NCBI GenBank assembly: GCA_016192455.1
Contig: JACPUC010000011.1
Span: forward strand, 124,001 to 188,000
Source of the DNA: Candidatus Tectimicrobiota bacterium
GTDB taxonomy: Bacteria; JACPUC01
DNA: 64,000 nucleotides
Direction: 5' to 3'
Below the pieces are notes generated by a model. That model searched no databases, was not told the DNA's origin, and saw only the letters and a list, made by a program, of their open reading frames with translations. Every line of letters begins with the position of its first letter. The first letter of the stretch is position 1. The position numbers and the translations under genes were made by a program. Positions 43,427 through 64,000 of the stretch are shown piece after piece.

Positions 43427-43430
43427 CGCC

Positions 43431-43844
43431 ATGGCGGCAGGTGACTACACGAAGCCTCTCCCCATCCCCGACGAAGACACCCAGCCCTACTTCGAGGCCT
43501 GCAAGCGCGGCGAACTGACGCTGCAGCGCTGCGACGCATGCAAGACGCTGCGCTTCGAGCCGGACAACATCTGCCCGAAATGCCTCAGCGACCGCTTCAC
43601 CTGGGAGCGCCTGAGCGGCAACGGCACGGTCTATACCTTCAGCGTCGTGCACCACGCCTACTACCCCGGCTTCAAGAGCGAGCTGCCCTACGTCATCGCC
43701 GTCGTCGAGCTGGCGGAGGGGCCGCGCATGCTCACCAATATCATCGACTGCAAGCCGGAGCTGGTGAAGATCGGCATGCCGGTGAAGGTGACGTTCAAGA
43801 AGTGCACCGAGGAGATCACCCTCCCTTACTTCGTGCCGGCGTAG
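43431..43844 (+). CDS. DUF35 OB-fold/zinc-ribbon acyl-CoA-associated protein
   Basis: 137-residue protein with an N-terminal helical hook (PYFEACKRGELTLQRC), a rubredoxin-like zinc ribbon (CDACKTLRFEPDNICPKC, two CxxC pairs) and a C-terminal OB fold (GTVYTFSVVHHAYYPGFKSELPYVIAVVELAEGPRMLTNII). DUF35 proteins bind thiolase-fold enzymes and act as acyl-CoA-binding or scaffold subunits, as in archaeal HMG-CoA synthesis and steroid aldolases. It is tightly linked to the thiolase gene (four-base gap), so the two very likely form a complex. A terminator-like hairpin follows at 43973. Confidence 0.93.
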   Translation: MAAGDYTKPLPIPDEDTQPYFEACKRGELTLQRCDACKTLRFEPDNICPKCLSDRFTWERLSGNGTVYTFSVVHHAYYPGFKSELPYVIAVVELAEGPRMLTNIIDCKPELVKIGMPVKVTFKKCTEEITLPYFVPA

Positions 43845-46617: not shown

Positions 46618-49600
46618 TTAGAAGATTCTCGCCGCGGTGCCGGCCAGGACGGCGGTGCTGAGGACGGTGGTGGTGAGGTCGCGCAAGTCGCCGAAGTTGA
46701 AGCGCTTCAGGTCGAGCTTCTCGGGCACGACGATGGTGTCGCCGGGCTGGACGTCCGCCGAGGCCACATCGGTGGCGAACCAGCGCGACGCCTGTGAGAA
46801 GCCCGGCGCATAGACCGACCCATCGGCCCGCACGATGAACAGTTTTGACTTGTTCGCCTTCTCGGTGTAGCCGCCGACTTTCTCCAGGTAGTAGCCCGCG
46901 TCCTGATCGGGGGTGTGGAGGATGGTGGCGGGGTTGAGGACCTCGCCGATAAGCGTCACCGTTTTCGGGATGCGGGGCACGAGGAGACGGTCGCCGTCCT
47001 CCAGCATCAGGTCGAACTTCGATTTCTTCAGGCCCTCTTGCGGATTCAGGGTGATGACGACGCGCCCGGCGGCCTTGATGGAGCGCAGGGTGCTCGCCAG
47101 GCGTTGGCGGGTCTCCAGGGCCGCCTTGCGCTTGCCCTCATCCTTCTGATTTTGGCTCGCTTCCTCCGCCGACAGCCGCAGCGCCTCGCGCTCTTGCAGC
47201 TTCAGCATCTCCTCGATGCGCTGCTGCTCCATCTCCCGCACCCTGGCGCGGGTGAAGACGGACCCCGGCAGGTAGGCATCGGCGGTGAAGCCGCCGGCCC
47301 GCTCGACGAGGTCGCTGATGCGATCCGACTTCGTCAAGGCATAGACGCCGGGGAAGCGCACCTCGCCCTCGACCGTCACCGTCTTCTCGGTGCCGAAATC
47401 GGGGATGATCCGCACCATCAGCACATCGAGGTGGCGCAACGGCAGGTTGTGCGCCGGCTCGCCTTCCAGCGCCTTGGCCAGGTTGATGGTGACGCGCGTC
47501 GCCTCCATCCCTTCCGGCTGCACCGCGCGCCGCGTGATCTCCGCTTCCGGCAGGTAAGCATAGGGGCTCAACCCCTTGGCGCGGAAGATGAGGTCGCGCA
47601 CCGTCATGTTCCCGGCCAGGGGGTAGACGCCCGGCTCGCGCACCTCGCCGGTTACCTTGACGGCCTTGGCGAACTCCGTCTCCTCAACGGAGTGGATGAC
47701 GAGGCGGTCCTGCTCCTCCAGCGCCGGGTTCTCCTTTTCGTCCCCCTGCAACCCTTTCCGCAGGTTGAAGCGGATATAGCTCAGGCCATGGTCGTCGCCG
47801 CGCCGCAGGAGCTCCGCTTCGTCGAGGTAGGCGGTGCGCGTCAGGTTGCCGGCGCGTTTGATCAGCTCCGTGACGCGCATGCCGGGGAGGAGCTCATAGA
47901 ACCCCGGACGCCGCACCTCCCCTTCGATCCCCACCTTGGGGAGGTCCTGGAACTCCTGGGCGGCGAAGATGCGCACCTGGTCCCCCGGCTGCAGGGGCAG
48001 GTTCGCCTCCTTGCCATGGCCGTTGGCCGAGAAGATCTCGGCGGGCTGGAAGGAGAGGATGGTGCGCGCCCGGGCAGGTCCGGCCTGGCGGATGATCTCG
48101 GCGTAGTCCAGGTAGGGCTCGGGCTTCAACACCTCGGCGGACGGGATGAGGTCGCGCAGGCGCATGCCCTCCTGGAACTGATACTCGCCGGGCCGGTAGA
48201 TGTGCCCCGCAAGGGAGACGGAGTTCCGCCTCTCCGGCAGGATGCTGAAAATCTGCACGAAATCGCCGTCCGCCACCTCGTACTCCCTTGCTTCCTTGCT
48301 CCCCTGCTGGCCGTCGAGGTCCACCTCGGTGAGGAAGCGGCGCTTGTGCGCCTCGATGCGTTCGATCTTCACCTTCGCCAGGTAGCCGAGCGCCGTCACG
48401 CCCCCCGACAGGTCGAGGGCCTCCGCCAGCGTCAGGCTGCCGGGAAACTCATAGATGCCGGGGCGCTTGACGTTCCCCGCCACCCCCACGACGTGCCCGA
48501 TGAGCGGCACGAAGAGGGTGTCCCCGGAACGCAGCGGCTCATCCAGTGTCTTGTCGCCGGTGAGGAGGAATCGGTACAGGTCGATGGTCTGCACCACCTT
48601 GCCGTTGCGCAGCAAGCGGATGCGGCGCAGGCTGCCGCGCTTCGTCGGCCCGCCGGAGAGGAAGAGGGCATGGAACGCCGTCGCGTTCGCCTCGAGCGAA
48701 TAGGTCCCCGGCGCCTCCACCTCGCCGACCACGAAGACCTGGATGGAGCGCAGCCGCTTCGGCACGATGTTCAGGTTGAAGTTCGAGTAGTAGCGCTGCA
48801 GGCGCTGGTTCACATACTGCCCCAACTGCTCGAAGCGCAGCCCGGCCACCGGCAGCAGCCCCACTTTGGGAAGGAAGAACGAACCCGTCTGGTCCACCGC
48901 TACCTCGAAGCTCTCGTTGAGGTTCCCCCAGGTATCGATGCGGTAGACATCGCCGGGCCCGACGAGATGATCATCACGCACGGGGAGGTCCCTGGAGGAC
49001 TGGAACGGGTCGCGGCCAGCGGCGAAGAGATCGTAGCCAAACTGCCGGATGGCGCCGATCTCGTTGGGGTCCTGGGCGGTGGCGAACATGCGCTCGACGG
49101 CCGAGCGCGCGTCGCGCCGGGCGGCGGCCGCAGCGCCCCCGCGTCCCCGCTCCGGCTCCAGCGCCCCTGGCTCGGCGAGAGGCTGCCGCGTCCCGCCGGC
49201 TCTGGAAGGTCCTGCCGCGAAGGGAGTCTCCCCGCCGCCGTCAAGTCCCCCCGCCGGCGGCATCACGGGCTGCGCCGCTCCATCCGGGCCGGCGAGGTCC
49301 ACCTTCATGGCGCCGTCTTCTCGCCGCCGCAGCTCCTCCGGAATGCGCGCCCCCTCCCGCTGCGGCGCCAGCCGTTGGCTTCCTCGCACCTCGCCCGCCG
49401 TCAGGCCCGGCAAGGCGCCCGGCGTCGGGACCTTTTCCTGCTGCTCCATGAACCAGCGGCTCGACGGCAGCTCGCGGCGGAACGGCGCCTCCTCGCCGCG
49501 CTCCGGCTCGGACGAGCCATTGGGCGGCTCCTGCCGGACGGGCGCGCACTCCAGCCGCAAGGCCTGGACGCCGGGCGAGGCGACCGGCGAGCAGCGCATC

Positions 49601-49860
49601 CTGACCGGGTTTCCGTCCGCGCCCTGGCGCGTGATGACGAAGGACTCGCCGCGCCGCGCGTCGCCGGAGAGGGGCTGCTGGGCCTCGCCCGCTCGGCCGG
49701 CGAGCGCCACCACGATCACCGCAAGGAGGAACAGCCGGCGGCTCCCCGCCACGGCCCCCAGGCGGGGCGCCCGTTCGCCTCGCCGCCGCGGCGGCCACAG
49801 CGTGGCGCCGGGTGTCGCTCGTTCCTCTTGTGTGTGCCACAGGTTCAACTGCCTGTTCAT
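46618..49860 (-). CDS. polysaccharide export protein, Wza-like with seven SLBB repeats
   Basis: 1080-residue envelope protein. A signal segment (LFLLAVIVVALAG, ending near GEAQQ) follows a long basic N-terminus. Residues 65-290 are a low-complexity Pro/Gly/Glu-rich linker. The Poly_export domain begins near 298 (DHLVGPGDVYRIDTWGNLNESFEVAVDQTGSFFLPKVG). Seven SLBB-like repeats follow, each of the form GEV-x2-PG-x-Y: VGEVEAPGTY, AGNVKRPGIY, AGHIYRPGEY, EGEVRRPGFY, TGEVREPGVY, EGEVRFPGVY and IGEVLNPATI. A charged coiled-coil segment (REMEQQRIEEMLKLQEREALRLSAEE) sits before the last repeat. Wza has two such repeats, so this is an expanded secretin-like channel for exopolysaccharide. No lipobox is seen. 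Last gene of the surface operon. Confidence 0.92.
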   Translation of the reverse strand: MNRQLNLWHTQEERATPGATLWPPRRRGERAPRLGAVAGSRRLFLLAVIVVALAGRAGEAQQPLSGDARRGESFVITRQGADGNPVRMRCSPVASPGVQALRLECAPVRQEPPNGSSEPERGEEAPFRRELPSSRWFMEQQEKVPTPGALPGLTAGEVRGSQRLAPQREGARIPEELRRREDGAMKVDLAGPDGAAQPVMPPAGGLDGGGETPFAAGPSRAGGTRQPLAEPGALEPERGRGGAAAAARRDARSAVERMFATAQDPNEIGAIRQFGYDLFAAGRDPFQSSRDLPVRDDHLVGPGDVYRIDTWGNLNESFEVAVDQTGSFFLPKVGLLPVAGLRFEQLGQYVNQRLQRYYSNFNLNIVPKRLRSIQVFVVGEVEAPGTYSLEANATAFHALFLSGGPTKRGSLRRIRLLRNGKVVQTIDLYRFLLTGDKTLDEPLRSGDTLFVPLIGHVVGVAGNVKRPGIYEFPGSLTLAEALDLSGGVTALGYLAKVKIERIEAHKRRFLTEVDLDGQQGSKEAREYEVADGDFVQIFSILPERRNSVSLAGHIYRPGEYQFQEGMRLRDLIPSAEVLKPEPYLDYAEIIRQAGPARARTILSFQPAEIFSANGHGKEANLPLQPGDQVRIFAAQEFQDLPKVGIEGEVRRPGFYELLPGMRVTELIKRAGNLTRTAYLDEAELLRRGDDHGLSYIRFNLRKGLQGDEKENPALEEQDRLVIHSVEETEFAKAVKVTGEVREPGVYPLAGNMTVRDLIFRAKGLSPYAYLPEAEITRRAVQPEGMEATRVTINLAKALEGEPAHNLPLRHLDVLMVRIIPDFGTEKTVTVEGEVRFPGVYALTKSDRISDLVERAGGFTADAYLPGSVFTRARVREMEQQRIEEMLKLQEREALRLSAEEASQNQKDEGKRKAALETRQRLASTLRSIKAAGRVVITLNPQEGLKKSKFDLMLEDGDRLLVPRIPKTVTLIGEVLNPATILHTPDQDAGYYLEKVGGYTEKANKSKLFIVRADGSVYAPGFSQASRWFATDVASADVQPGDTIVVPEKLDLKRFNFGDLRDLTTTVLSTAVLAGTAARIF

Positions 49861-49992: not shown

Positions 49993-51000
49993 TTACTTCC
50001 AGCCCGGGAAACTGAAGCGATAGTTGATCCCCACCCCAACGTAGCCGAAGCGCGCCAAGGTCCCCGGGCTGAACTGCTCGGCGAGGATGTTCAGGTGCGG
50101 CACCTCTCCCGCCAGACCGTTGGCAAAGAACGCCCCGAAGAGCTGCAGGGAGACGTTCGGATGCAGGAAGTAGACGACCCTGGCCTCCAGAACGGTGTTC
50201 GAGTCGGTCTCGGGGACGTTGATCCGGCGGAAGCGGACGTTGGGGCCGAAGATGTTCAGCTCCATCCCGCCGTGCCGCGTGATGAACAGGCGGCGGATGC
50301 CCCCCGCCAGCACCAGGTTCTCGGTGACCTGAAACTCCAGGTTCGTGCCGACGGTCCAGGTGTGCTGGCTTTCGCCGAGGACGGTGGTCGAGGCCCAGGA
50401 GAGCAGCGGATGCACGGCGAACCAGGAGGACCAGCGCCGCGAGCTGAGCCAGGAGAGCTGGTAAGTCTCATCCCCGAACGCCTGCCGGATGCGCGCGCGG
50501 GTCTGGGGCAGCAGGATGACCGTGAGATCGCTCGTGCGGTTGCGCAAGTAGTCGAAGCCGAGGGTGAAGGCGGGCAGCTCCTCCGTCTCCGGCCGCAGGT
50601 TGAAGCGCAGCCCGAGCCGCCGCCGATCAACCTGCGCGCCGTCCGGCAGGCGCGGCGAGATGTCGTACTGCTGCTCCTCCAGCCAGCCCCCGAGGGTGAG
50701 GCGCTCGAAGAGGCCGGCATTGACCCCGAAGCGGAAGGCGCTGAACGTATCCTCCGTCTGCTCCACGACGTTGAAGACGTCGACGGTTTTGTTGGCGAAG
50801 CGCGCGTCGCCCCACAGCTCGACGAGGCCGCGGTCCAGGGTGTACCCCATCGGCAGGTCGAGCAGCATGCGGTTGCCGGCGGCGTGCCCTGGAGTGGGAG
50901 CATTGAGAAGGAGGGAGAGCACGACCAGGAGCCGGACCGGCCGGCGCAGGAGGATGGCGAAGATTTTGCCCAAGGTCAGATTCAGGTGTTGGAGAAGCAT
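49993..51000 (-). CDS. outer-membrane beta-barrel protein
   Basis: 335-residue exported protein. A signal peptide (IFAILLRRPVRLLVVLSLLLNAPTPGHAA) precedes alternating hydrophobic/polar strands typical of a beta barrel: ERLTLGGWLEEQQYDIS, RRRLGLRFNLRPETEELPAFTLGFDYLRN, TWTVGTNLEFQVTENLVLAGGIRRLFI, NTVLEARVVYFLHPNVSLQLFGAFFA, and a C-terminal FGYVGVGINYRFSFPGWK. The aromatic-rich last strand fits Bam-dependent barrels. ATG 51000 is the first start that leads directly into the signal peptide. It lies 44 bp after the giant surface-protein gene and 130 bp before the exporter gene on one strand, so it may be a companion porin or assembly barrel for that system. No named family is recognised. Confidence 0.8.
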   Translation of the reverse strand: MLLQHLNLTLGKIFAILLRRPVRLLVVLSLLLNAPTPGHAAGNRMLLDLPMGYTLDRGLVELWGDARFANKTVDVFNVVEQTEDTFSAFRFGVNAGLFERLTLGGWLEEQQYDISPRLPDGAQVDRRRLGLRFNLRPETEELPAFTLGFDYLRNRTSDLTVILLPQTRARIRQAFGDETYQLSWLSSRRWSSWFAVHPLLSWASTTVLGESQHTWTVGTNLEFQVTENLVLAGGIRRLFITRHGGMELNIFGPNVRFRRINVPETDSNTVLEARVVYFLHPNVSLQLFGAFFANGLAGEVPHLNILAEQFSPGTLARFGYVGVGINYRFSFPGWK

Positions 51001-51043
51001 GCCGATTCGACGTTGCCAGTTCGAGCACTCAGATGCCCTTACC

Positions 51044-54000
51044 CTACGCCGGCTTCCGAAGTGGAAAATGGGAGTGAGCTGCCTGATCCTCGCTCCCCGC
51101 GAGCTGCTCAGCAGCTCGCGCAAGGGGGGTGCGCGAGGGGACAAGGTCCCCTGCGCTCGCCGTCCCCTGCGACTGGCCCGCGTCGATGCGCAGCGCCTCA
51201 CCGCCCTGCCCGTCCGGCTGCACCGAGGCGAGGGCGGTGAGGTTCGTGCTCGCCACCAAGGGTGAGGCGCTGTGCGCATCGCTGGCCGCAAACGTGGCCT
51301 GGGTGAGCATCGCCGAGCTGATCGTGGGCGTGCTGTTCAGCCCCAGCTCGACGATCGGCAGGTTCGGCGGGCTGCCGCTGCCGGGCGAGACCGCGAACGT
51401 CGTGACGCGGGTGTTCAGCTCGTTGATGTTCGCCACCCGCTCTCCGCCTCGGCCGTTGCCGTTCGCGTCAGCGGGGATGAAGAAGCGGAAGGTCACCTCG
51501 ATCAGCCCGCGCCCGATGTTGCCCGCGGCGTCCTGGAAAGCGCCGCCGTCGAGGCTGAGGCTGGCGAGGTAGAGCAGCCCTTCGCGGATGCCGCTGGCCG
51601 AGAAGTCGATCGGGAACCCCAAGGCGTCCGGGTCGATCTCGATGGTGTGCGTGTTGCGCAGGGCCGACGCGTCGCTCGTCACCTGGAGAGTCTCGCCGAG
51701 AGCGCCGTCGATCTTCAAAAAGACGCTGTTCAAGTTCAGGTTGGCGCCCTTCAGGTCGTTCCCCTGGCCGTTGAACGGCCCGCCGGCCAGGTTGATGAGG
51801 CTGATGTTCGTCGGGAACGCCTGGCGCAGGTTCGCCAGGCCGTTCAGGAGGCTGCTGGTGTTCAAGCTGCTGCCAGCGGGAGCCGCCTCGCGCACGAAGG
51901 CCACCGACACCTTGCCGAGCACCTCGCGGTTGGCGCTGCCGCCCGGAATTTCATTGGGTCGCCGCAGGCGCACCGGCTCCGAGAACGTCAGGCGGATGTT
52001 GTCGAACAGCCCGAGCGAAGAGCTCGCCTCGGAACCCAGCACCTCCACCTTCAGGAGGACCGGCGCCTGCGTATCCGCGGCAGGCGTTCCGCCACCGCCT
52101 CCACCGCCTGCGCTGCCTCCTCCGCTTCCACCGCCGCCCGAGCCGCCGCCGCCCCCGCCGCCAGCCGCACCACCACCACCGCCACCGGCCGCGCTGCCTC
52201 CTCCTCCCCCGCCCGCGGCTGCCCCGCCGCCTCCGCCGCCCGCGGTCGCAGCGCCGCCTCCGCGAGGCAGGCCGGTTTCACTGAAGAAGAGTGTGAACCG
52301 CAGCGGCTCGGAGACGTTCCCCGCCGCGTCGATGCCCTCCAGGGCGAACTCCTGCAGGTCCAGAAGGTTGAGGGCGAGGACGAAGTGGAAGACGCCATCG
52401 ACGACCGGCTGCTCGGTGACGATCTCCTGTCCACGGCGGAGGCGCACCCGCGCGCTCTCCTCCGCCTGGCCTTGGACCAGGAAGCTCACCTCTCTGCCGA
52501 TGGTGACGCCGTCCATGGGAGCGCTGAGGACCGGCGTGCGCGGCGGGGCGGTGTCGAGGCGCAGGCGCAGGGGCGCCGAGGCGGCGAGCACCTCCCCCGC
52601 CGCGCCGAGCGCCTGCACGAGGAGCGTGTTCTCCCCCTCGGCGAGCCGCTCCGAGAGGCCGAAGGTGAAGGCGCCGTTGGCGGCGGCGACCGTGGTGGCC
52701 ACCGCCGCGTCATTGACGAACAGGCGCAGGGTTGCGTTCGGCCCCGCCGTGCCCCGAATCAACGGCTGCGGCTCGGTGAGCACCTCTCCCTCAATCGGGC
52801 TGCGGATGATGGGAACAACCACCACCCGCGGCGGACGCCGCACGGTGACGCTGACGGCCTCCGAGGCGTTGCCCGCCGCGTCCCTGGCGCGGAGGGTGAT
52901 TCCCAGCTCGTCGGCGGAGGCGGGGAAGCGCGCCGCGAAGCTGAACCGCCCCTCGGCATCAGAAGAGAAGCGCTCCTGCTGCCCGGCGGACGTTTCAAGC
53001 AGGAGCGTGGCGCCGGCCTCGGTGACACCCCGCACCGTGACGTTCGTCCCCTCGCTGCGCTCCCCCTGGAGCGGCGCCTCCAGGCGCGGCGGCGCCGGAG
53101 CTGCCGTGTCGATGCGCACCGGCAGTTCGACGGAGCTGAGCGGCGCTGTGCCGGCGACGTCCCGCGGCTCGCCGGCCGCCTGCCGGACGCTCACGGTATG
53201 GAGGCCGTCCGCCAGGTCGCGCACCGGCTGCATGCGGAAGCGGCCCTCGGCGTCGCCGCGGGCGCTGTCGAGCACCACGCCGTCGATGAGGAGCTCGAGG
53301 TCCACGCCAGGCCGCGCCCGCCCGCTCACCAGGGGCCGCGCCGTGCTGAGGACCTGGCCGCTCGACGGGCTGGTGATGATGGGCGCCACGCGGCCTTCCC
53401 GATTGATGGTGATGATGACCTGACTCGACCGCGGCGACGGCGGGTTGCCGGCCTCATCGGAGGCCTGGGCGGTGATGGCGTAGGTCCCCTCCACGAGGTC
53501 CGGCGGCGCCTGCACGGCGAAGCTCCCGAAGGCGTTCGCCAGGCCTTCGAGGCGCTGGGCCTCGCCCGGCGCCTCGAGGCGCTCGAGGAAGACGACGACC
53601 CGCGCCCCCGGCTCGCCCAGCCCCGAGATGCGCATGCCTCCCTCCCGGAAGACCTGCCCTACTTCAGGGGTCAGCAGGGTCGGCGTGAGCGACTGCGTGT
53701 CGAGGATGTAGACGAGCGGCGCCGGGCCGGCGGCGGTGTTGCCCGCCCGGTCGCGCGCGCCGACAAGCAGGGTGTAGACGCCGTCGGCCGGCAGCGCCTG
53801 CAGGCGCGCGGCGAAGCGGCCCGCGCCGTCCGCCGTGCCCGCGCCGACGGCGCGGCCGTTCAGGGTGATGGTTACCGCCGCCCCCGGCTCGGCGGCGCCG
53901 GTCACCAGGGGGGCCGGTTCGCGGCTCACCGTCCGCGGCGCCGGCGCCTCGACCTCGGGCGGGATCGTGCGGCTATCCACCGTGACCTCGACAAACGCCG

Positions 54001-56980
54001 GCTCGGAGGCGTTCCCCGCCCGGTCGAAGGCCGTCAGCGCGTAGCGCGCGACGCTGTCCGCCGCCTGCGTGAGCAGGAAGCGGAAGCGCCCGTCAGCGCT
54101 CGGCGCGCTCTCCGTCCGCCCGTCGCTCCCTTGCAGGGTGATGAAGGCGTCCGCTTCGGCCTCCCCGGAAATCTCAACCTGTGCGGCGTTGCTGAGGATC
54201 ACCGCCTGGTCTGGACGGGGCGCGGCCGGCGGCGTCGCGTCGGCGGCAAGCTGCCGGGCCGTCTGCAGGACCGTCTCGGGGATGTTCATGACCTGCCGCA
54301 GCTCCTCGAGCGCCGCGTTCAGATCGTCGGCCCGTCCGTTCACCTGGCCGGCGCGCAGGGCGCCGAGGAAGATCGCCTCCTGAATCGCCGCCGCCAGGTC
54401 GTCGTTCTCCTGCCGCTTCGGCGGCTGCTGCAGGCGCTGAGCCGACGACGCCCCCGCCGCGCTGGCCTCCAACGCCGCGGCCAACACCGCGCGCGCCGTG
54501 CTCATGAAGGCGGGCTCCGGCGTCGCGTTCAAGAGCGCCGCGATGCCGTCCGCCACCAGGCGGCTGCGCCGGCGGGGCGCCAGGTCGCGGGTGGCGCGGA
54601 TGAGGCCGCGGGCGAAGAGGGCTTGCAATCCGGTGTCCGCCAAGGCGCCTGCCGGCTGCGTGGTTGCCCCCACCCGCCCGATGCCGGCCAACACCTGCAC
54701 GAGCTTCGTCCCCGCCGCCGAATCGGGTTGCAGGGCGCCGCGCAGCAGGGACTCCACCTCCCCCTGGGTGAGCGGCGCATCGAGGCCGGCGAGGGCGCCC
54801 AGCAGCTCCTCGACGGAACGCTCGCGCACGCCGGCGAGGAAGGTGTGCAGCGCCTCCATCAGGCGGCCGCGTCCGAGCAGCTCGTCGAGACGCCGCCACA
54901 TGCGGATGAGGAGGGCGCCGCCGCCGCTCTCCCCGGCTGCCGGGATGGTCGCCAGCAGGGCCTCCGCCACCTCGTCGAGCCGGGCAAGGTCATGCGCCGG
55001 CGGGTCAGCCCCCGCGCCTTCCGCCGCCGCCGAGGCTTCCGCGGCGGCCACCGTGGCGAGCAGCAGGGCGCGCAGCACGTAGCCGTGCTCCAGCAGGCGG
55101 GTCGCCGCGTCGAGGAGCCGCCGGAGGGACGCAGCCTGCTCCGGCCCCGCGGCCGGCAGGACTGCCCCGAGGGCGGCGGCCAGGCGGCGCAGGATGTCAC
55201 GATCCTCGGCGTCGGCCCCCAGGCGGCGGATGAAGTCGGCGAGCGCCGCGACCTCAAGGGCGGGCGTCGGCGCGACGCCGCGCCGGACTGCGTCGCGCGC
55301 CAGCACGCTAAGGTCCGAGAGGGCGCCGAGGCTTTCGAGAGCGGCCTCCACAAGCGGCGGCAGGCTTGGCGTGCTCGGCGGGAACTCCCCAGCCAGGAGG
55401 CGTTCGATGACGCCCCGCGGCAGGCGCCTCAGCGGCTCCGCCGACCCGCCTGGGGCGGTCGCGGCCTTCCCGTTGGCCGGCGCCTCGGCGGCCCCTCGCG
55501 CGGCAAGCTCATCTCGCAGCGCGGCGGAGAGTTGGGCCAGCAAGGGATAGCGCTGTCCCTCCTGACTCGCCGAGGATGCCGCCGCGGCATCGGGGAGCAA
55601 AAGCGCCAGCGCGGCTTGGGGATCGATGCTGAACCCCGGCTCCGGGAAGCGCGGGTCAAGGCGGGCCGCGCAGGAGGCCGCGCTCCCCGCGCTGTTCCCG
55701 CCGCAGCTCGCATCGGCGCGCGCCAGGAGGGTCTCGAGCAGAGCCGCGGAGGCGGTGCTGGTCACGTCGAGGTTGATGTCGCTTGCCACTGCGCCGGGCG
55801 TGAACAGGGCCTGGCGCGTCATGCCGCCCCGCCGAGTCGCCAGGATGACCACCGCGTCAGGGCTGAGACCATCGGGGGCGCGCATGGCCTCGTCCAGCCG
55901 CAACTCCCCACCCTCGACCGGCGCCGCCCGCAGCGGCTCCCCCGACAGAGTGAAGACCCCCGCCGCCATGCCCGCGGGGTCGTCCCCGGCATGGCCCGCG
56001 GCGCTCTCCACGTTCAGCCGCAGCGAACGCGGCGCCACGAGGAACGGCGCGCGCCCAGCGAAGCGCGTCTCGCCGCCGCTGCCCTCCAGCTCGATGACGA
56101 CGCCGTAGTCGCCGAGGGGGAGGTCGGACGCGATGGGCGCCTCGAGGAAGACCGGCAGCTCCAGATCGAGCGGCTGGAAGCGGGCCAGGGGGCGGCGCCC
56201 CGGCGTGAGGTCCAGCCCCGCGCCCCCGCCCGGGATAAGGAAGTACTGCCCCAGCGGCGTTTCGAACGACAGGTAGGCCGTCACCTCCTCGGCCCGCGCC
56301 CCGGCATGAATGCGGCCCGCCAGGGTAAGGCGCTCGTCGGGGAAGTACGTCCTCTGGTTGAGGAGGAGCCGCACCGACGGCGCGTCCCGCACCTCGAAGC
56401 GCACCGAGCTGCGTTGGCGCGCCGCGCCGCTCTCGGGGTCGGCGGTCCAGGCGGTGAGGCGATAGGCGCCGGCTTCGAGGAGCAGGGGAAGGCCGGGATC
56501 AAGAGGGGGGCGAAGCGACAGGAAGTCGGCGACGACGAAATCCTGCTCGGCAAAGCGCCGCGCCACCGCTTGCGGCTGGCTGGTGAACTCCGGGAAATAG
56601 AGGGTGGTCCCCGAGGAAGCGCCGGCGAGCGTGGAAGGGTCTACGGCGTTCGCGGCCTCCTCCCCATCAAGCGCCTCGATGGCAAGGAAGAGGTCCACCG
56701 GCCCGGCCTCGCCCACCCGGCGCATGCGGAAGCTGAAGCTGATTTCCTCGCCGTGAGTGAGCGTCGTAGTGTTCGAGGAGAGGACGATGCGGCTGTCCGC
56801 GGCGGCCGGTCGCCAGGAAAGGAGCAGCGAGAGGAGGACCAGGGCGGCGCTCCCCCAGGGCGGCCACGCATGCCGCCGCGGCCTACGCCGGGCTGAGAGC
56901 CTGCGCGGCATCCTGCATGACATCGGCCAAGGCCAGACGGAGCGACGGCATCCAGGACCTGCCAGGCCGCCTTCTCTCAT
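51044..56980 (-). CDS. giant secreted Ig-like repeat protein (1978 aa) with glycine-rich linker
   Basis: Predicted surface protein. A long basic N-terminus leads to a signal segment (AALVLLSLLLSWRPAAA, near 45-61). Two beta-sandwich modules follow (residues about 62-330), the second starting SVRLLLNQRTYFPDERLTL, a pattern shared with the upstream gene. Residues 330-960 are Ala/Leu-rich helical sequence. About 960-1570 holds at least six bacterial Ig-like repeats with the signature DGAGRF...DGVYTLLVGARDRAGN. Residues about 1573-1632 are almost pure Gly/Ala/Ser, then a C-terminal DTQAPVLLKVEVLGSEASSSLGLFDNIRLTFSEPV domain. The last 35 residues are encoded by a dispersed palindromic repeat. The start ATG overlaps the upstream stop as ATGA. 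Likely an adhesin or matrix protein; no anchor or autotransporter domain is recognised. Confidence 0.88.
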   Translation of the reverse strand: MREGGLAGPGCRRSVWPWPMSCRMPRRLSARRRPRRHAWPPWGSAALVLLSLLLSWRPAAADSRIVLSSNTTTLTHGEEISFSFRMRRVGEAGPVDLFLAIEALDGEEAANAVDPSTLAGASSGTTLYFPEFTSQPQAVARRFAEQDFVVADFLSLRPPLDPGLPLLLEAGAYRLTAWTADPESGAARQRSSVRFEVRDAPSVRLLLNQRTYFPDERLTLAGRIHAGARAEEVTAYLSFETPLGQYFLIPGGGAGLDLTPGRRPLARFQPLDLELPVFLEAPIASDLPLGDYGVVIELEGSGGETRFAGRAPFLVAPRSLRLNVESAAGHAGDDPAGMAAGVFTLSGEPLRAAPVEGGELRLDEAMRAPDGLSPDAVVILATRRGGMTRQALFTPGAVASDINLDVTSTASAALLETLLARADASCGGNSAGSAASCAARLDPRFPEPGFSIDPQAALALLLPDAAAASSASQEGQRYPLLAQLSAALRDELAARGAAEAPANGKAATAPGGSAEPLRRLPRGVIERLLAGEFPPSTPSLPPLVEAALESLGALSDLSVLARDAVRRGVAPTPALEVAALADFIRRLGADAEDRDILRRLAAALGAVLPAAGPEQAASLRRLLDAATRLLEHGYVLRALLLATVAAAEASAAAEGAGADPPAHDLARLDEVAEALLATIPAAGESGGGALLIRMWRRLDELLGRGRLMEALHTFLAGVRERSVEELLGALAGLDAPLTQGEVESLLRGALQPDSAAGTKLVQVLAGIGRVGATTQPAGALADTGLQALFARGLIRATRDLAPRRRSRLVADGIAALLNATPEPAFMSTARAVLAAALEASAAGASSAQRLQQPPKRQENDDLAAAIQEAIFLGALRAGQVNGRADDLNAALEELRQVMNIPETVLQTARQLAADATPPAAPRPDQAVILSNAAQVEISGEAEADAFITLQGSDGRTESAPSADGRFRFLLTQAADSVARYALTAFDRAGNASEPAFVEVTVDSRTIPPEVEAPAPRTVSREPAPLVTGAAEPGAAVTITLNGRAVGAGTADGAGRFAARLQALPADGVYTLLVGARDRAGNTAAGPAPLVYILDTQSLTPTLLTPEVGQVFREGGMRISGLGEPGARVVVFLERLEAPGEAQRLEGLANAFGSFAVQAPPDLVEGTYAITAQASDEAGNPPSPRSSQVIITINREGRVAPIITSPSSGQVLSTARPLVSGRARPGVDLELLIDGVVLDSARGDAEGRFRMQPVRDLADGLHTVSVRQAAGEPRDVAGTAPLSSVELPVRIDTAAPAPPRLEAPLQGERSEGTNVTVRGVTEAGATLLLETSAGQQERFSSDAEGRFSFAARFPASADELGITLRARDAAGNASEAVSVTVRRPPRVVVVPIIRSPIEGEVLTEPQPLIRGTAGPNATLRLFVNDAAVATTVAAANGAFTFGLSERLAEGENTLLVQALGAAGEVLAASAPLRLRLDTAPPRTPVLSAPMDGVTIGREVSFLVQGQAEESARVRLRRGQEIVTEQPVVDGVFHFVLALNLLDLQEFALEGIDAAGNVSEPLRFTLFFSETGLPRGGGAATAGGGGGGAAAGGGGGGSAAGGGGGGAAGGGGGGGSGGGGSGGGSAGGGGGGGTPAADTQAPVLLKVEVLGSEASSSLGLFDNIRLTFSEPVRLRRPNEIPGGSANREVLGKVSVAFVREAAPAGSSLNTSSLLNGLANLRQAFPTNISLINLAGGPFNGQGNDLKGANLNLNSVFLKIDGALGETLQVTSDASALRNTHTIEIDPDALGFPIDFSASGIREGLLYLASLSLDGGAFQDAAGNIGRGLIEVTFRFFIPADANGNGRGGERVANINELNTRVTTFAVSPGSGSPPNLPIVELGLNSTPTISSAMLTQATFAASDAHSASPLVASTNLTALASVQPDGQGGEALRIDAGQSQGTASAGDLVPSRTPLARAAEQLAGSEDQAAHSHFPLRKPA
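51094..51160. repeat. dispersed long repeat, copy A
   Basis: CCCCGCGAGCTGC, hairpin partner GCAGCTCGCG, then GGGGTGCGCGAGGGG and a second small hairpin (AAGGTCCCCTGCG). The same order of elements occurs at 58312-58376 and 59492-59556. This copy lies inside the 3' end of the giant gene. Confidence 0.85.
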
Positions 56981-58182
56981 GCCTCGAAGCTGAGGTTTAC
57001 GGGCGCCAGCACCTGCGGCGCCAGTTCGCCGCCGTCAAGGGCGCGAATGCCGGGGAAAATCTCGAAGGTCACCGGCGCGATGATAAGCAACCCAAGGTCG
57101 TCCGAGGGCAGAAAATCGCGCTTCGGAGTGACGATGACGGTTCGCCCATCGCCGGCCACCCGCAGCGTGAAGAACCTCGACGCCTCGCCCTGGCGCAGGG
57201 AGGTGCGCGGGAAGGCATCGCGCAGGAAGTCGGGAAGGCTCGCCACGCCGACGGTCAGGCCGACGTTCGGCAGGATGGTGGCGGCGTCCGGGGGCCGGTT
57301 GAACTCCACCCGCAGCTCCGGCGTGAAGGGGGCGGATGTCATCGAGACGATCTGCAGCGGCTGCGGCTGTAGAGGCGACGCGCGCAGCTCCACCTCCTCG
57401 ACCTGAACCGATCCCAGCACGTCCAGCGTCCCCGCCTGCGCGAGGCCGGCGAACCAGGTGAAGACACCCACCAGCGAAACCTCCTCGGGCAGGCTGATCC
57501 GCCACAGCTCGCGCTCCTCCGCCTGGAGCGCCACATCGGCCATGAAGGGCCGCGCCTCGGGGAGGAAATCGGGATAGAAGAGCACGGTGCGGCGGTCGGG
57601 GAACTGCACCGCCAGGTAGGCGTCGACCGGCTGATCCACCACCTGCGCGGACGACCGCAGCGTCACCACCAGCTCATCGCCGGGCCGGTACGTCGCCTGG
57701 TTGAGCTGCACGCGGAAGGCGGCGAAGGCGGGGTCGAAGAGGATCGGCGCGGACTGCTCGCACTGCGTTGCGGCGCCGGGGACCTGCAACCCTGCCACCC
57801 AGGTGTAGGCGCCGGCGGGAAGCCGCAGCGCCTCGTCAAGCTGGAGGGAGAAGAGCGGCTGGGATGCCGGCGAGGCGGCGGGCAGCGGGAAGGGGCGCGG
57901 CGCGGCGGACATCTCGAAATCCGGGAACCAAAGGGGTTCCTCAATCCCCGGGACGCGGACGCCGAGGAAGGCGGAGGTATCCGCCGCGGACGCATCTCCC
58001 AGGGCAACGAAGCTGAGATTGAGCGTATCTCCCGTCGTGTAGACGCGCTGATTGAGCGCAATCCGGACCCTCGGCGCGCACTCCTGCGCCGGGCTTTGCA
58101 CGGGGAAGAGAAACCGGCAGACAATGAAGAGAAGCAGCGCCATGAAGAAGACGCCGCGTCGTCCAGGTTGCGGAATTGTCAT
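56977..58182 (-). CDS. secreted repeat-module protein, partner of the giant protein
   Basis: 401-residue exported protein. The signal segment (GVFFMALLLFIVCRFLFPVQSPAQ) is followed by two copies of a module of about 120 residues. Each begins with LNQ-x-x-Y-x-x-GD (RIALNQRVYTTGDTLNLSF and RVQLNQATYRPGDELVVTL), continues with DAYLAVQFP-type and FYPDF strands, and ends with a YTWVAGL or FTWFAGL strand. A third region (PEDAAT-like PPDAATILPNVGLTVG, DGRTVIVTPKRDFLPSDDLGLLI) resembles the SbsA-type Ig fold. ATG 58182 is preferred over TTG 58191. Its stop overlaps the giant gene's start (ATGA), so the two are coupled. Function unknown; surface location inferred. Confidence 0.82.
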   Translation of the reverse strand: MTIPQPGRRGVFFMALLLFIVCRFLFPVQSPAQECAPRVRIALNQRVYTTGDTLNLSFVALGDASAADTSAFLGVRVPGIEEPLWFPDFEMSAAPRPFPLPAASPASQPLFSLQLDEALRLPAGAYTWVAGLQVPGAATQCEQSAPILFDPAFAAFRVQLNQATYRPGDELVVTLRSSAQVVDQPVDAYLAVQFPDRRTVLFYPDFLPEARPFMADVALQAEERELWRISLPEEVSLVGVFTWFAGLAQAGTLDVLGSVQVEEVELRASPLQPQPLQIVSMTSAPFTPELRVEFNRPPDAATILPNVGLTVGVASLPDFLRDAFPRTSLRQGEASRFFTLRVAGDGRTVIVTPKRDFLPSDDLGLLIIAPVTFEIFPGIRALDGGELAPQVLAPVNLSFEA

Positions 58183-58311: not shown

Positions 58312-58376
58312 TCCCCCGCGAGCTGCGCAGCGGCTCGCGTAAATGGGGTGCGCGAGGGGGCGCGGCTCCCTCGCAC
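58312..58376. repeat. dispersed long repeat, copy B
   Basis: CCCCGCGAGCTGC, GCAGCGGCTCGCG, then GGGGTGCGCGAGGGGG and CGCGGCTCCCTCGCA. It lies 40 bases past the fcl stop, in the same orientation as copy C on the other side of fcl. Confidence 0.88.
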
Positions 58377-59460: not shown

Positions 59461-59556
59461 TGGGGGATCATTGATCCCCCAGACCCCCTTTCCCCGCGAG
59501 TTCGCCCTGCGAACTCGTCTAAGCGGGGTGCGCGAGGGGGCGAGGCTCCCTGCGAA
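59461..59556. repeat. composite palindromic repeat with long repeat copy C
   Basis: 59461-59481 is a perfect GATC palindrome (TGGGGGATC, ATT, GATCCCCCA), followed by GACCCCCTTTCC and then the long repeat (59492-59556): CCCCGCGAGTTCG, CGAACTCGTC, GGGGTGCGCGAGGGGG, CGAGGCTCCCTGCG. The hairpin arms have changed together relative to copies A and B, so base-pairing is kept. The 280-bp gap around it (59370-59648) holds no gene. Confidence 0.88.
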
Positions 59557-59648: not shown

Positions 59649-60344
59649 TTACATTTTTCGTGCTTCTATGCAGATACTATCTTTATGCCGTCCACTATCT
59701 TCAACTTCTCCAAACCTTTCATCCGCCCACTCACCATAAACACAAAACTTAACTTCACGAAAACCGTGGTCCTTTAGTGCCCTGGATAGGGAGTATCTGT
59801 CCCACATCCATTGATGACGAGCATTCGATAACACTTCCTTTATCCTAGCCAAGAAGGACATCCTCGTCTTAAAGAATCCTAAATGTGAGTTGGTCAAGAA
59901 ATAGGTATTTGCTGATGTGCATAATTCATAATCTTTAGATGAAAGTCTATTTAAATACTCCTCTGCCATCAGTTCCAAATCAGGAACGATACATCTGAAA
60001 TATCCTTTGATTGCTACGTACTTGTAAATGTTGGAGATGGCGGAATGGAAATCCTCTTTGCTTAAATGCTCAAGAATATGTGAGGCAAATATTAGTCTAA
60101 TACTTCCTTCCTGAACTTTTAATCCCTTAACTATATCTCCATACATGACATTTGATGGCCATTGGACATGTAGGTACTTTGGTGCTAATGTGCGAACGCC
60201 TGGAATCTTTGATAAGCGTAATGAGAAGGATGCATCAATATTAATCCAGCCTTCTCCCGCAGTGGTTCCACACCCAATATTCAAACAATGATCACCGCGA
60301 TCATTAGCTTCCAACGCATTAAGTCGTGTTACAAGTAGTCGCAT
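59649..60344 (-). CDS. SAM-dependent methyltransferase, AT-rich
   Basis: 231-residue class I methyltransferase. Motif I reads HCLNIGCGTTAGEGWINID, and the post-motifs IRLIFASHILEHLSKEDFHSAISNIYKYVAIKGYFRCIVPDLELMAEEYL follow the usual Methyltransf_11 pattern with an HILEHL acidic loop. Its place in the polysaccharide locus suggests methylation of a sugar or glycolipid. It is visibly AT-rich against fcl and the glycosyltransferases, so it was likely acquired with the O-antigen-type island. No good ribosome-binding site is seen before ATG 60344. The acceptor is unknown. Confidence 0.85.
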   Translation of the reverse strand: MRLLVTRLNALEANDRGDHCLNIGCGTTAGEGWINIDASFSLRLSKIPGVRTLAPKYLHVQWPSNVMYGDIVKGLKVQEGSIRLIFASHILEHLSKEDFHSAISNIYKYVAIKGYFRCIVPDLELMAEEYLNRLSSKDYELCTSANTYFLTNSHLGFFKTRMSFLARIKEVLSNARHQWMWDRYSLSRALKDHGFREVKFCVYGEWADERFGEVEDSGRHKDSICIEARKM

Positions 60345-60410
60345 TCTAAAACTGGTTCATTCAAACTGGAGTTAAATTACCGGGCTTTACCCTTTACCAG
60401 TTAGTTATCG

Positions 60411-60620
60411 TTACTGTGCCTTGTCGATGATATTATCCCCAAGCACCAGCGTATCCATCTTCGTGCGCAGGAAGCAGTCGAGCGCCTCGGCTGGCTGGTG
60501 GACGATCGGTTCGTTCTCGTTGCAAGAGGTGTTGAGCAGGACGGGGACGCCGGTGAGGTCGGCGAAGGACTCGATGAGGCGGTGTTAGCGCGGGTTCGTG
60601 TGGCGCCGGTTAGAGCAGGG
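60411..60620 (-). pseudogene. 3' remnant of a NodU/CmcH-family carbamoyltransferase
   Basis: The minus strand reads HTNPR, a stop where Tyr is expected, then HRLIESFADLTGVPVLLNTSCNENEPIVHQPAEALDCFLRTKMDTLVLGDNIIDK and the natural stop. This is the conserved C-terminal end of NodU-type O-carbamoyltransferases (about 550-600 residues when whole). It is GC-rich, unlike the acetyltransferase gene abutting it. The matching 5' end of such a gene lies at 61380-61613, so one gene has been broken in two. Confidence 0.85.
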
Positions 60621-61230
60621 AGAAAGGCTTTTCCTGCTGATCACCATGAGAGGTGCATTGACGTGGTGAGAAATGACATTCCTCATGCTGCTGAAGTATT
60701 CGATCCTTCACAAACTCCGCTGGGTTGCCCGCTGAAATAGTCCAGGCCTTCGTATCTTTGGTAACGACGCTTCCCGCAGCAAGGACACTTCCTTCTGAAA
60801 TTGTCACTCCAGGACAGATGGTCGAGAAAGCCCCAATCCATGCCTGATTCTCAATGACAATCTCCCTCGTTATCAACGCAAACCTTGGATCGGACCAGTC
60901 ATGGTTCCCCGTACAAAGATAGACTCCTTGAGAGATGCAGCAGTCGGCGCCGATTGTGACCAGGGCAAGGTTATCGATCCACACCCCTTCCCCAATCCAG
61001 GTCTGATTGCCGATCGTCAACTTCCATGGATACTTGATATTGACACGAGGTTTTATGATCACACCATCACCAATCTTTGCTCCAAAGAAGCGGAGCACGA
61101 TCCTTTTTATCGTATAGAAGGGAAGCAGCCAGGAGTCAAAGAGGAGAGCATTGATAAGGTACCAGGAAAAAAGTTTTCCTAATGACGCACTCCGCGTATG
61201 CTGAACTCGTGCGTACTCTTTTAAATTCAT
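60610..61230 (-). CDS. WcaF-like hexapeptide acetyltransferase
   Basis: 206-residue left-handed beta-helix O-acetyltransferase. Hexapeptide repeats are clear: GAKIGDGVIIKPRVNIKYPWKLTIGNQTWIGEGVWIDNLALVTIGADCCISQGVYLCTGNHDWSDP, then IENQAWIGAFSTICPGVTISEGSVLAAGSVVTKD and SAGNPAEFVKDR, the WcaF/NodL-type order. The GNHDW His is the probable catalytic base. It would acetylate a sugar of the exported polysaccharide. AT-rich. It occupies the space where the middle of a carbamoyltransferase gene used to be; its last codons run right into the remnant. ATG 61230 gives the family start (MNLKEYARVQ); ATG 61242 is in frame. Confidence 0.92.
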   Translation of the reverse strand: MNLKEYARVQHTRSASLGKLFSWYLINALLFDSWLLPFYTIKRIVLRFFGAKIGDGVIIKPRVNIKYPWKLTIGNQTWIGEGVWIDNLALVTIGADCCISQGVYLCTGNHDWSDPRFALITREIVIENQAWIGAFSTICPGVTISEGSVLAAGSVVTKDTKAWTISAGNPAEFVKDRILQQHEECHFSPRQCTSHGDQQEKPFSLL

Positions 61231-61379
61231 CCCTCCTTGCATCTCTAATTCTGGACCTTAGGGTACGGATACACCGCGTTGCGCTCTTTCTTTACAAGAT
61301 TACTTATGAGGAGATTTCCAGCTTTCAATAATGGCATGGAGCGGACGGCATTGGTGGTGCGCCTCCTCTGGCCAGGCAA

Positions 61380-61613
61380 TCACCCCTCCCCTAGCTCGCC
61401 GTTCACCGATGCCAACACCTGCCGTTGCCCGCGCAGGCTACCGTGGTAAATCACCGTCAACTCCGCGCAGGCCTGGATCGCCTCGCGCGGGAACCGCGCC
61501 CAGTGCTTCACCCGCCGAAAGCGCTCCTCCTCCACCGCTGCGCACAGCTCCCCATCCCGCACCAGCGCGGCGGATACGTCACCGTGGTAGGCGTTGATGC
61601 CGAGGAGGATCAT
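61380..61613 (-). pseudogene. 5' remnant of a NodU/CmcH-family carbamoyltransferase
   Basis: From ATG 61613 the frame reads MILLGINAYHGDVSAALVRDGELCAAVEEERFRRVKHWARFPREAIQAC, the near-invariant N-terminus of this family, then departs into unrelated residues and stops at 61380 (about 77 codons against an expected 550-600). The 3' end of such a gene is at 60411-60620 on the same strand. The intervening 1.4 kb or so of coding sequence is gone, replaced by the acetyltransferase gene. Confidence 0.85.
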
Positions 61614-61717
61614 CGCAATGTCACCGCGAGGGATTCCCAATTAGCCGAAGTCTGGCGCCTTGTTTTGATCGGCTTTGTCAGCTTGCAATCACGCTGAGGC
61701 TGCATGACCACATCGTG

Positions 61718-62320
61718 TTAGGGCTTCATCCAGAGCGCAGTATCGGTCACGCCGCTTGAAGTCCAGATACAGCGCCAATCTCCAACCGCCATCTGGAATG
61801 TTTGCCAACTTTCTGATGGAGGAGCATGGCCATATCGTTGCGAATTAGGAGAACGACTCGCTGAGGGCAAAAACCAATTACAGTTGTCGATGACAATGAT
61901 CCCGCCGGGCTTAAGAAGTGACAGAGCCACAACTGCGCATTCATCCCGCCTGATGCCGTCCACTAGGATGAGGTCGAGACTGTTCTTTTGCATGGAAAGC
62001 GCGCGTTCAACATACTTCGATTCATCACAGAGATGATAATCAACATGTGTCAGCTTCATTCTCTGTATTCTGCGGCTGACCCGCCGATACCAATAAGGAT
62101 CATGCTCAATGCTTGTGATGAACTTTACTCTTGTAGAAAACCAGAGCGTACTTCTGCCGGAACCCCATTCGAGCACCTTGTCTTCAGGTTTCAGCCAACT
62201 CGACAAGATGTTCGTCATACTCTTGGTGAGCCACGGGGTCTGCTTGTTCGTATGTTCGTAGGTGAGCACCATGAGGCGGCTCGCGATGTAGCGTGGCGAG
62301 AGATGCCGAATATTTCTCAT
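61718..62320 (-). CDS. SAM-dependent methyltransferase-like protein
   Basis: 200-residue class I methyltransferase. Motif I is DKVLEWGSGRSTLWFSTRV, followed by FITSIEHDPYWYRRVSRRIQRM (ribose-binding acidic position), SLDLILVDGIRRDECAVVALSLLKPGGIIVIDNCNW, the layout of the Methyltransf_24 type. The C-terminal part is short and Trp-rich. It lies between a glycosyltransferase gene (51-bp gap) and the broken carbamoyltransferase on one strand, so it is probably part of the polysaccharide operon. Composition is intermediate. Substrate unknown. Confidence 0.85.
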   Translation of the reverse strand: MRNIRHLSPRYIASRLMVLTYEHTNKQTPWLTKSMTNILSSWLKPEDKVLEWGSGRSTLWFSTRVKFITSIEHDPYWYRRVSRRIQRMKLTHVDYHLCDESKYVERALSMQKNSLDLILVDGIRRDECAVVALSLLKPGGIIVIDNCNWFLPSASRSPNSQRYGHAPPSESWQTFQMAVGDWRCIWTSSGVTDTALWMKP

Positions 62321-62370
62321 CGGTCTACCTTTCCATCAAAGGTAGGGTCTGGTTGCGATCATGCCGGCGA

Positions 62371-63576
62371 TCAGTGGCCGTTGATCCATGCCGGCGCCAG
62401 CCGGTCGCCCCGCAGGATGTCTTCGTAGACCGCGATCATCCGCGCGGCAATGGATTCCCAGTTCAACTTTTCGCGGACGAGCGCCTGGCCGCGCCGGCCC
62501 ATGTCCCGCCGTCGCACGGGATCGGTAAGCAACGCTCCGAGCGCCCTCGCCAGCGCCTCGCCCCGCGGTTCGACGATGACGCCCCCGCCTGCCGCTTCAA
62601 TCTCCGGGAAGTTGCAGGCAGGGGAGAGCACCACGGGACAACCGCAGGCAGCCGCCTCCAGCGCCGCCATGCTGAACCCCTCCGAGTGCGACGGCAGCAC
62701 GAAGAGCTCCGCCGCGCCCAGGGCGCTCAGCTTCTCCTCTCCTTCGAGGAGGCCCGTGAAGCGGACGTGCTGTGACAACTCGTAGCGGGCGACGGCCAAC
62801 TCGAGCGCGGCTCGGTAGCCCACATTATCTGGGCCGGCGAGAACAAGCAGTAGGTCAGAGCAGCCGGCGACACGCCGCACAAGCATGCCGAACGCCTCGA
62901 GAAGGACGTCCAGGCCCTTTTTCGGATGCAGCCGGCCAAGGAAGAGGAGGTACCGCTTCCCTCGCAGCTCCGGGTACCGGGCGTCAAGAACCGCACGTGG
63001 CGGGACGCTGCGGTAGTCGTCCGGGTCAATACCATTCGGCAGGACAAACGTCGGGCGTTGCAACCCGAGCGCCGCAAACTGCCGTCCCTCCGCGGCGGTG
63101 AGGGCATGCAGGGCGGCGGCACGCTTTAGCGTCCGGTGATCGAAAAGCTTGAAATACGGCCGCTTTTTCCATGCCTTCCAGGCAAGCGCCCAAGGATCGA
63201 GCATGCCATGTGGACTGACGATGTAGGGGCGATGGAAGTACCGCGCCAGGCGGCTGCCAAGCAGGGTGGGGTACGAGAAGAGGCCGTGCAGGTGTAGGAG
63301 ATCAACCTCCCGCGCGTTCCGCCAAAGCCAAGCCGTGAGACCCCAGGACCAGCCGTACTCCTCAGGTCCGCGGCACCGGAAGAAGTGATACGGCACCTCC
63401 CATACTGGCTCCCTCGAGGCGCTCGCTGGGCCAACCGCCTCCGATGAACTGCCATATAATGCAGCGAGGCGGACATCCAGCCCCGCCTTGCGCTGCCAAC
63501 GCGCGATCTGTGGCACGAGGGTGCTCGGTCCACCGAATTGGGGCCTCAGCGACGGCACGATGTGCAGGACGCGCAT
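62371..63576 (-). CDS. glycosyltransferase family 4
   Basis: 401-residue GT-B glycosyltransferase. The N-terminal domain begins MRVLHIVPSLRPQFGGPSTLVPQIARWQ (glycine loop) and contains VDLLHLHGLFSYPTLLGSRLARYFHRPYIVSPHGMLDPWAL. The C-terminal GT4 domain has LLFLGRLHPKKGLDVLLEAF, VRFTGLLEGEEKLSALGAAELFVLPSHSEGFSMAALEAAACGCPVVLSP with the EGFSMAALEA nucleotide-sugar motif. The start ATG 63576 overlaps the upstream gene's stop as TGATG, which fixes it; a frame extension of 15 codons upstream lies within that gene. It transfers a sugar to the growing polysaccharide or lipid carrier; specificity unknown. Confidence 0.95.
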   Translation of the reverse strand: MRVLHIVPSLRPQFGGPSTLVPQIARWQRKAGLDVRLAALYGSSSEAVGPASASREPVWEVPYHFFRCRGPEEYGWSWGLTAWLWRNAREVDLLHLHGLFSYPTLLGSRLARYFHRPYIVSPHGMLDPWALAWKAWKKRPYFKLFDHRTLKRAAALHALTAAEGRQFAALGLQRPTFVLPNGIDPDDYRSVPPRAVLDARYPELRGKRYLLFLGRLHPKKGLDVLLEAFGMLVRRVAGCSDLLLVLAGPDNVGYRAALELAVARYELSQHVRFTGLLEGEEKLSALGAAELFVLPSHSEGFSMAALEAAACGCPVVLSPACNFPEIEAAGGGVIVEPRGEALARALGALLTDPVRRRDMGRRGQALVREKLNWESIAARMIAVYEDILRGDRLAPAWINGH

Positions 63577-64000
63577 CACCGTCCGCCGCGCTCCCGCCGC
63601 GCCAGCGTCACTTGTAGGCAATCAGCCAGAGCCGCCGCCCAAGTCTGCGGGGTGTAATTCGCCACGATCCCGCGCGACATCTCCCCCATGCGCCGCAGGT
63701 CAACGCGCCCGGAGGAAACGCGCTCCATGTACCCCGCAAGCTCGTCGATGTCGTACGGATCGAACACGTAGCCGTTGAGCCCCGGCAGCACCAGGTCGCC
63801 GACCGCGCCGCAGCGGTCCGACGCCAGCACCGGCAGACCGCAGGCCATCGCTTCGTTGATGACCAGGCCCCACGGCTCGCTGGTGCTCGGCAGGACGAGG
63901 CAGTTTGCCAGCGCGTAGTACGCCGGCAGCGTGTCGAGCTGCTGGAATCCCGGCCAAACAACGGCGTGCAAGTGCAGAGCTTCGGCGCGGCGCTTGAGCT
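63576..64000 (-). CDS. glycosyltransferase family 4, N-terminus outside window
   Basis: About 141 C-terminal residues are visible; the gene continues beyond the right edge. The GT4 C-terminal domain is clear: VVWPGFQQLDTLPAYYALANCLVLPSTSEPWGLVINEAMACGLPVLASDRCGAVGDLVLPGLNGYVFDPYDIDELAGYMERV, with the EPWGLVINEA motif that binds the nucleotide-sugar. Its stop overlaps the next glycosyltransferase start (TGATG), so the two are translationally coupled in one polysaccharide operon. Confidence 0.93.
   Translation of the reverse strand, partial: LKRRAEALHLHAVVWPGFQQLDTLPAYYALANCLVLPSTSEPWGLVINEAMACGLPVLASDRCGAVGDLVLPGLNGYVFDPYDIDELAGYMERVSSGRVDLRRMGEMSRGIVANYTPQTWAAALADCLQVTLARRERGGR

Follow-up and report, generated by a model that had tools for sequence, protein, structure and literature searches.

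RbmA of Vibrio cholerae, a small secreted protein built of tandem FnIII domains, binds VPS directly and carries a native type II secretion signal (PMC5605196). In the rbm/vps loci, genes for matrix proteins are tied to a polysaccharide locus in a genome that also has a type II secretion system (PMC5605196, PMC3855419). For the exit of the polymer, the composite OPX/β-barrel translocons of Myxococcus, EpsY/EpsX and WzaX/WzpX, combine a short OPX with an 18-stranded barrel (PMC9601211, PMC9603273), and in the KpsD-type Class 2 OPX a GfcC domain follows the SLBB domains (PMC9603273).

Here we compare these systems with a locus from a Candidatus Tectimicrobiota bacterium. The original prediction held that four genes, encoding a 401-aa protein (P0001), a 1978-aa protein (P0002), a barrel (P0003), and a seven-SLBB exporter (P0004), form a dedicated system that builds or secretes a large surface structure together with polysaccharide, and that P0001 and P0002 have in common a repeated module beginning with LNQ. 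All genomes used for comparison are related to the host at the domain level only.

A polysaccharide cluster on one strand

The window is the whole stretch of 64,000 nucleotides that was analyzed (C6:124001-188000 in a 4.46-Mb assembly). Inspection of the window and the adjoining 36 kb of the contig revealed a polysaccharide cluster of about 46 kb, running in one direction, that contains the genes of interest (Table 1). On the minus strand it starts with the gene for a giant protein of 2602 aa (giant A), followed by genes for a Wzz-kinase, a glycosyltransferase, a WecA-type transferase, an epimerase, and an ABC permease, and it continues with an ABC ATPase bearing a Wzt_C domain and then a methyltransferase and glycosyltransferases before the genes of the window are reached. 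At its end, on the same strand, are the genes of P0001, P0002 (giant B), the barrel, and the OPX, in that order, and the common direction predicted for these four genes was thereby confirmed. The ATG of the giant B gene overlaps the TGA of the upstream P0001 gene (ATGA). Giant A is encoded directly upstream of the Wzz-kinase, and giant B stands at the barrel/OPX end; the lengths of the two giants, 2602 aa and 1978 aa, rest on start codons that are not certain. The exporter gene itself lies beyond the stretch on which the original prediction was centered (49993-58182).

Table 1. Features of the locus and of related host proteins (positions are those of the window unless a contig or locus is given)
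Feature	Position	Strand	Evidence or remark
P0004, 1080-aa OPX polysaccharide exporter	46618..49860	-	Poly_export + seven SLBB
P0003, 335-aa outer-membrane β-barrel, about 12 strands	49993..51000	-	predicted model
P0002 (giant B), 1978-aa secreted protein	51044..56980	-	paralogue of giant A
P0002 ~290-aa C-terminal domain	51206..52087	-	one copy here, four in giant A; 30-33% identity
P0002 Gly-rich linker	52088..52299	-	Pro-rich linker at matching place in giant A
P0002 tandem bacterial Ig repeats (Big_6/Big_13), about aa 911-1560	52300..54250	-	Big_6 E 1.2e-44, 6 stretches
P0002 Ala-rich (22%) middle, about aa 330-905	54266..55993	-	no family matched
P0002 module copy 2 (aa 200-318), SVRLLLNQRTYFPDERL	56027..56383	-	20.0 bits vs <=8.2 in shuffles
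P0002 module copy 1 (aa 62-200), the "looser" copy	56381..56797	-	27.5 bits vs <=5.9 in shuffles
P0001, 401-aa secreted protein	56977..58182	-	signal peptide, two tandem modules, ~130-aa C-terminal domain
P0001 module copy 2 (aa 153-270), predicted β-sandwich	57373..57726	-	70.6 bits vs <=9.4 in shuffles; pLDDT mostly 77-95
P0001 module copy 1 (aa 35-150), predicted β-sandwich	57733..58080	-	47.8 bits vs <=6.3 in 1000 shuffles; modelled strands 38-149
NAD-dependent epimerase/dehydratase (GDP-sugar type), final sugar gene ahead of P0001	58416..59369	-	Epimerase E 9.6e-59
Two methyltransferases, hexapeptide acetyltransferase, glycosyltransferase	59649..63621	-	domain search
Giant A, 2602 aa	C6 208999-216807 (L039:4999-12807)	-	Pro-rich linker, four copies of common C-terminal domain
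Further host module protein	L029:8102-9361	+	
Further host module protein	L029:9657-11693	+	
Further host module protein	L083:6766-7956	-	
Further host module protein	L082:992-3313	-	HEIGH zinc-metalloprotease motif

An interspersed repeat of about 58 bases occurs at three sites (51095-51152, 58314-58371, and 59494-59551). The first copy sits in the 3' end of the giant B gene and encodes part of the final residues, so the last ~35 residues of the protein may be recent and the locus has been rearranged. Translated stretches similar to this repeat were also observed at ORF starts in L032.

The LNQ module in P0001, the giants, and other exported proteins

The two module copies predicted in P0001 are 34% identical over 98 aa (self-alignment, E 4e-12 for a six-sequence database), and the copy described as clear in giant B matches the first of them with 29% identity over 119 aa (E 3e-8, six-sequence database). 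The other giant B copy, described as looser, is as real as the clear one, since a profile built solely from 22 copies that occur in G034, an unrelated genome, scores all four copies of the window far above 1,000 shuffles of each (Table 1). With the same profile, two further modules were found at the N terminus of giant A (38.4 and 28.8 bits).

AlphaFold2 modelling on 17 aligned copies gave two tandem β-sandwiches (aa 38-150 and 156-266), the second with a pLDDT of mostly 77-95. In the structure search, macroglobulin (MG) domains of complement proteins matched the model, and RbmA (5g50, 4be6) was also among the matches; with a Z of about 9-10 and a two-domain rmsd above 10 Å, these matches support the fold class and not membership in a family. 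The match of the P0001 model to RbmA 4be6 (Z 9.2, 201 residues aligned, rmsd 11.4) is tied with those to the MG domains, and the likeness to RbmA is one of fold level only, because of the large two-domain rmsd. No family for the module was found in Pfam, NCBIfam, or PHROGs. P0001 as a whole gave no Pfam match, no significant NCBIfam match, and no PHROGs family; it matched no PDB sequence at E 5, nor did the PDB and NCBIfam searches reveal sequence homology to RbmA. PDB sequence searches with the bi-module or with the C-terminal domain of the giants gave nothing useful. Pfam MG2 (PF01835), which is alike in predicted fold, touches 2 of the 17 module copies (best E 5.5e-4), whereas the proteins of the window give no match to it and show no thioester or bait region. 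As modelled, the module is a general-purpose MG/FnIII-like β-sandwich.

P0001 may resemble RbmA in its predicted tandem FnIII-like β-sandwiches, and it too is a small secreted protein; its locus resembles the rbm/vps loci in that genes of putative matrix proteins are tied to a polysaccharide locus in a genome with type II secretion (PMC5605196, PMC3855419). Unlike RbmA, P0001 has no sequence family match and carries an extra C-terminal domain of ~130 aa, and its locus encodes giants of 1978 and 2602 aa.

A bi-module profile was positive in 7 of 386 genomes. Genome G034 contains about 22 module copies, mostly near the C termini of large exported proteins; a 3626-aa protein of this genome (L030:212-11092, plus strand) combines β-propeller, FnIII, and Ig domains with several module copies at its end. 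Contigs C10 and C2 of the host encode four further exported proteins with the module, all at sites far from a polysaccharide locus (Table 1). These copies in many unrelated exported proteins rule out a module specific to the operon: it is promiscuous, and to a large extent it behaves as the common domain that the original prediction had named as the case against itself. What the locus offers in exchange is a concrete biological setting for a widespread unnamed extracellular domain.

The barrel and the long multi-SLBB exporter

The predicted seven-SLBB exporter was verified by Pfam (SLBB in seven stretches, E 8.7e-61; Poly_export PF02563, E 3e-16). P0004 matches Wza structures (E 2.9e-13) and has both PF02563 and SLBB, by which the OPX family is recognized. 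It resembles the KpsD-like, long multi-SLBB OPX proteins (PMC9603273) in its Poly_export domain, its many SLBB domains, its short amphipathic C-terminal segment, and the ABC transporter in its cluster, and may differ in the GfcC domain, of which Pfam detects none in P0004; the relative in L027 has a weak PF20616 match (E 0.008). The last 32 residues of P0004 are amphipathic (moment 0.7-0.9) and only mildly hydrophobic, with a similar tail in the relatives. OPX proteins that form their own α-helical outer-membrane pore have an amphipathic, membrane-spanning C-terminal helix (Wza_C).

The predicted barrel was also recovered: P0003 was modelled with 12 strands (pLDDT 66, pTM 0.68; moderate confidence from a five-sequence input), the barrel starting at aa 59, downstream of a signal peptide. 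Its best structural matches are FapF (VIA Z 22.3), KdgM (21.8), and NanC (20.9). P0003 has no family in Pfam, NCBIfam, or PHROGs, and a PDB sequence search gave nothing useful. FapF is a polypeptide (amyloid) transporter, and KdgM and NanC are sugar porins; P0003 has its predicted 12-stranded fold in common with all three (VIA Z 21-22) and differs from them in sequence (6-11% identity) and gene context.

Relatives of P0003 are rare. Two genomes of the 386-genome sample (G187 and G042) contain one, as does G386, and a contig search added only two named relatives, from Schekmanbacteria (L033) and Nitrospirales (L034). The OPX gene directly follows the barrel gene in L033 and is itself followed by that of a Wzz protein; two further genes intervene between barrel and OPX in L027 (G187), with Wzz next; in G042 the OPX lies on the barrel's contig, 49 kb away; and in L034, a short contig without an OPX, a sugar aminotransferase gene adjoins that of the barrel. 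In every whole genome found with the barrel (G187, G386, and G042), a P0004-type OPX is adjacent to it or on the same contig, and P0004 is 37-38% identical to the barrel-paired OPX proteins of L027 and L033. The pairing is seen in several phyla. One of the two genes between barrel and OPX in L027 is an intact carbamoyltransferase-like gene, and in the window a short ORF (61380-61640, minus strand) resembles a carbamoyltransferase N terminus and is apparently a remnant.

The proximity of OPX and barrel genes (in the window, L033, L027, and G042) and the Wzz-type co-polymerase in the cluster recall EpsX/EpsY. In contrast to the short D1D2/D1D2D2 OPX of those systems, P0004 has 1080 aa and seven SLBB domains, and P0003 has a predicted 12 strands (at moderate confidence) versus 18. 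OPX length and strand number rule out P0003/P0004 as an EpsX/EpsY translocon, and since neither the short OPX nor the 18 strands are present, we do not file the pair as a composite translocon; a 12-stranded barrel with a long multi-SLBB OPX is a pairing outside the two published composite types.

The P0004-type OPX was found in 56 of 374 genomes, the host included, and the barrel in few, so this OPX type does not need the barrel, and an obligate partnership was ruled out; G320, which belongs to the family of G042, encodes this OPX and no barrel. Neither the module nor the C-terminal domain of the giants was found in the six barrel/OPX neighborhoods inspected elsewhere, and no P0004-type OPX was found at E 1e-20 in the module-rich genomes G034, G179, G314, and G086. 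Among the genomes searched, then, only barrel and OPX are conserved as a pair, without module proteins, and a conserved four-gene system, as originally proposed, is ruled out across this domain-level sample. The barrel-OPX pair and the module proteins are two evolutionary units, kept apart in the neighborhoods inspected elsewhere and joined in the host.

Because FapF is the top match of P0003 and the barrel gene has the giant B gene on one side, across a gap of 43 bases, and the OPX gene on the other, the barrel could be a FapF-like secretion pore for the giant and module proteins, the OPX being a separate neighbor. We regard this as improbable: the barrel relatives in Schekmanbacteria, Nitrospirales, and G042 lie near OPX or sugar genes without the module or the C-terminal domain of the giants, the sugar porins score as well as FapF, and P0003, in which no plug or coiled-coil domain was seen, appears too small for the long N-terminal domain of FapF.

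Paralogous giants and a putative protein-polysaccharide coat

Giants A and B are paralogous, matching at their N termini (31% identity, E 9e-19) and at their C termini (E 8e-17); their Ala-rich middles are similar in composition, without significant homology (E 0.2). The ~290-aa C-terminal domain was found in 1 of 386 genomes, the host, in five copies that all lie within the two giants, and was not found in a second set of 192 genomes, partly overlapping with the first and searched without a positive control. The notion of a dedicated system therefore fits this domain, and it does not fit the LNQ module, which occurs widely. No anchor or sorting signal was recognized in the giants, Pfam detected no curlin or Fap family in P0001 or P0002, and a weak RbmA-like (PamR) match, below the cut-off, is confined to the Ig repeats of P0002.

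The proposed tie between surface proteins and polysaccharide held up well: the P0001 and giant B genes stand at the end of a real one-strand cluster, and a paralogue of giant B opens it beside the Wzz-kinase. As giant A lies outside the window, this link is stronger than the original prediction could see. With P0001 and giant B at one end of the polysaccharide cluster and a giant relative at the other, these proteins probably form a coat on the sugar polymer that is exported, or cross-link it. The reading we favor, to which we give about an even chance, is that P0001 and the giants are secreted proteins of the matrix or surface, produced along with one polysaccharide, which they hold on the cell. 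In this model, the glycosyltransferases of the cluster would build the polysaccharide, which would cross the inner membrane via the Wzm/Wzt-type ABC transporter, be handled by the Wzz-kinase co-polymerase, and leave through the long OPX, perhaps helped by the 12-stranded barrel. P0001 and the giants would be exported by Sec, with type II secretion a plausible route to the surface; GspD is present in the host genome above the cut-off (471 bits). The MG/FnIII-like modules and bacterial Ig repeats may then bind or cross-link the polymer or each other, in the manner of RbmA. Should the giants indeed retain the polymer, this would be a testable model of how bacteria make a protein-sugar coat from a single locus.

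The promiscuity of the module, the lack of joint conservation of the four genes, and the rearrangement indicated by the interspersed repeat at the end of the giant B gene would all agree with a chance placement of generic exported Ig-like proteins beside a polysaccharide locus, with no function in common. We consider this rather unlikely, because paralogous giants flank a one-strand cluster and share a domain with no other occurrence in this genome or among those sampled, a placement that is unlikely by chance.

The positions of giant A, directly upstream of the Wzz-kinase (PCP), and giant B, two genes from the OPX, could also mean that these long, multidomain proteins without recognized anchor or sorting signal are periplasmic or envelope-spanning accessories of the export machine, joining its Wzz-kinase and OPX/barrel ends. 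This is quite unlikely, given that the OPX type occurs in 55 other genomes, with no such protein in the six neighborhoods inspected, and that Big_6/Big_13 repeats are typical of surface adhesins. Another reading, about as doubtful, is that the locus represents a previously undescribed surface-assembly system of an isolated lineage, in which the giants placed at the ends, each combining the uncatalogued sandwich module with a C-terminal domain specific to the lineage, would form one coat with the polymer and be matched to the PCP and OPX/12-strand-barrel ends of the export machine.

The host genome has only two OPX proteins. The second, with its own Wzz-type system, is encoded on contig C2 (L042:5177-9870, plus strand), and neither a barrel relative nor a giant was found beside it. 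Several transposase-like ORFs (L039:13095-19115) lie upstream of giant A at the cluster edge. Just past the polysaccharide cluster, on the plus strand (42266-43844), a thiolase-like gene is followed by a small zinc-ribbon/OB-fold-like gene.
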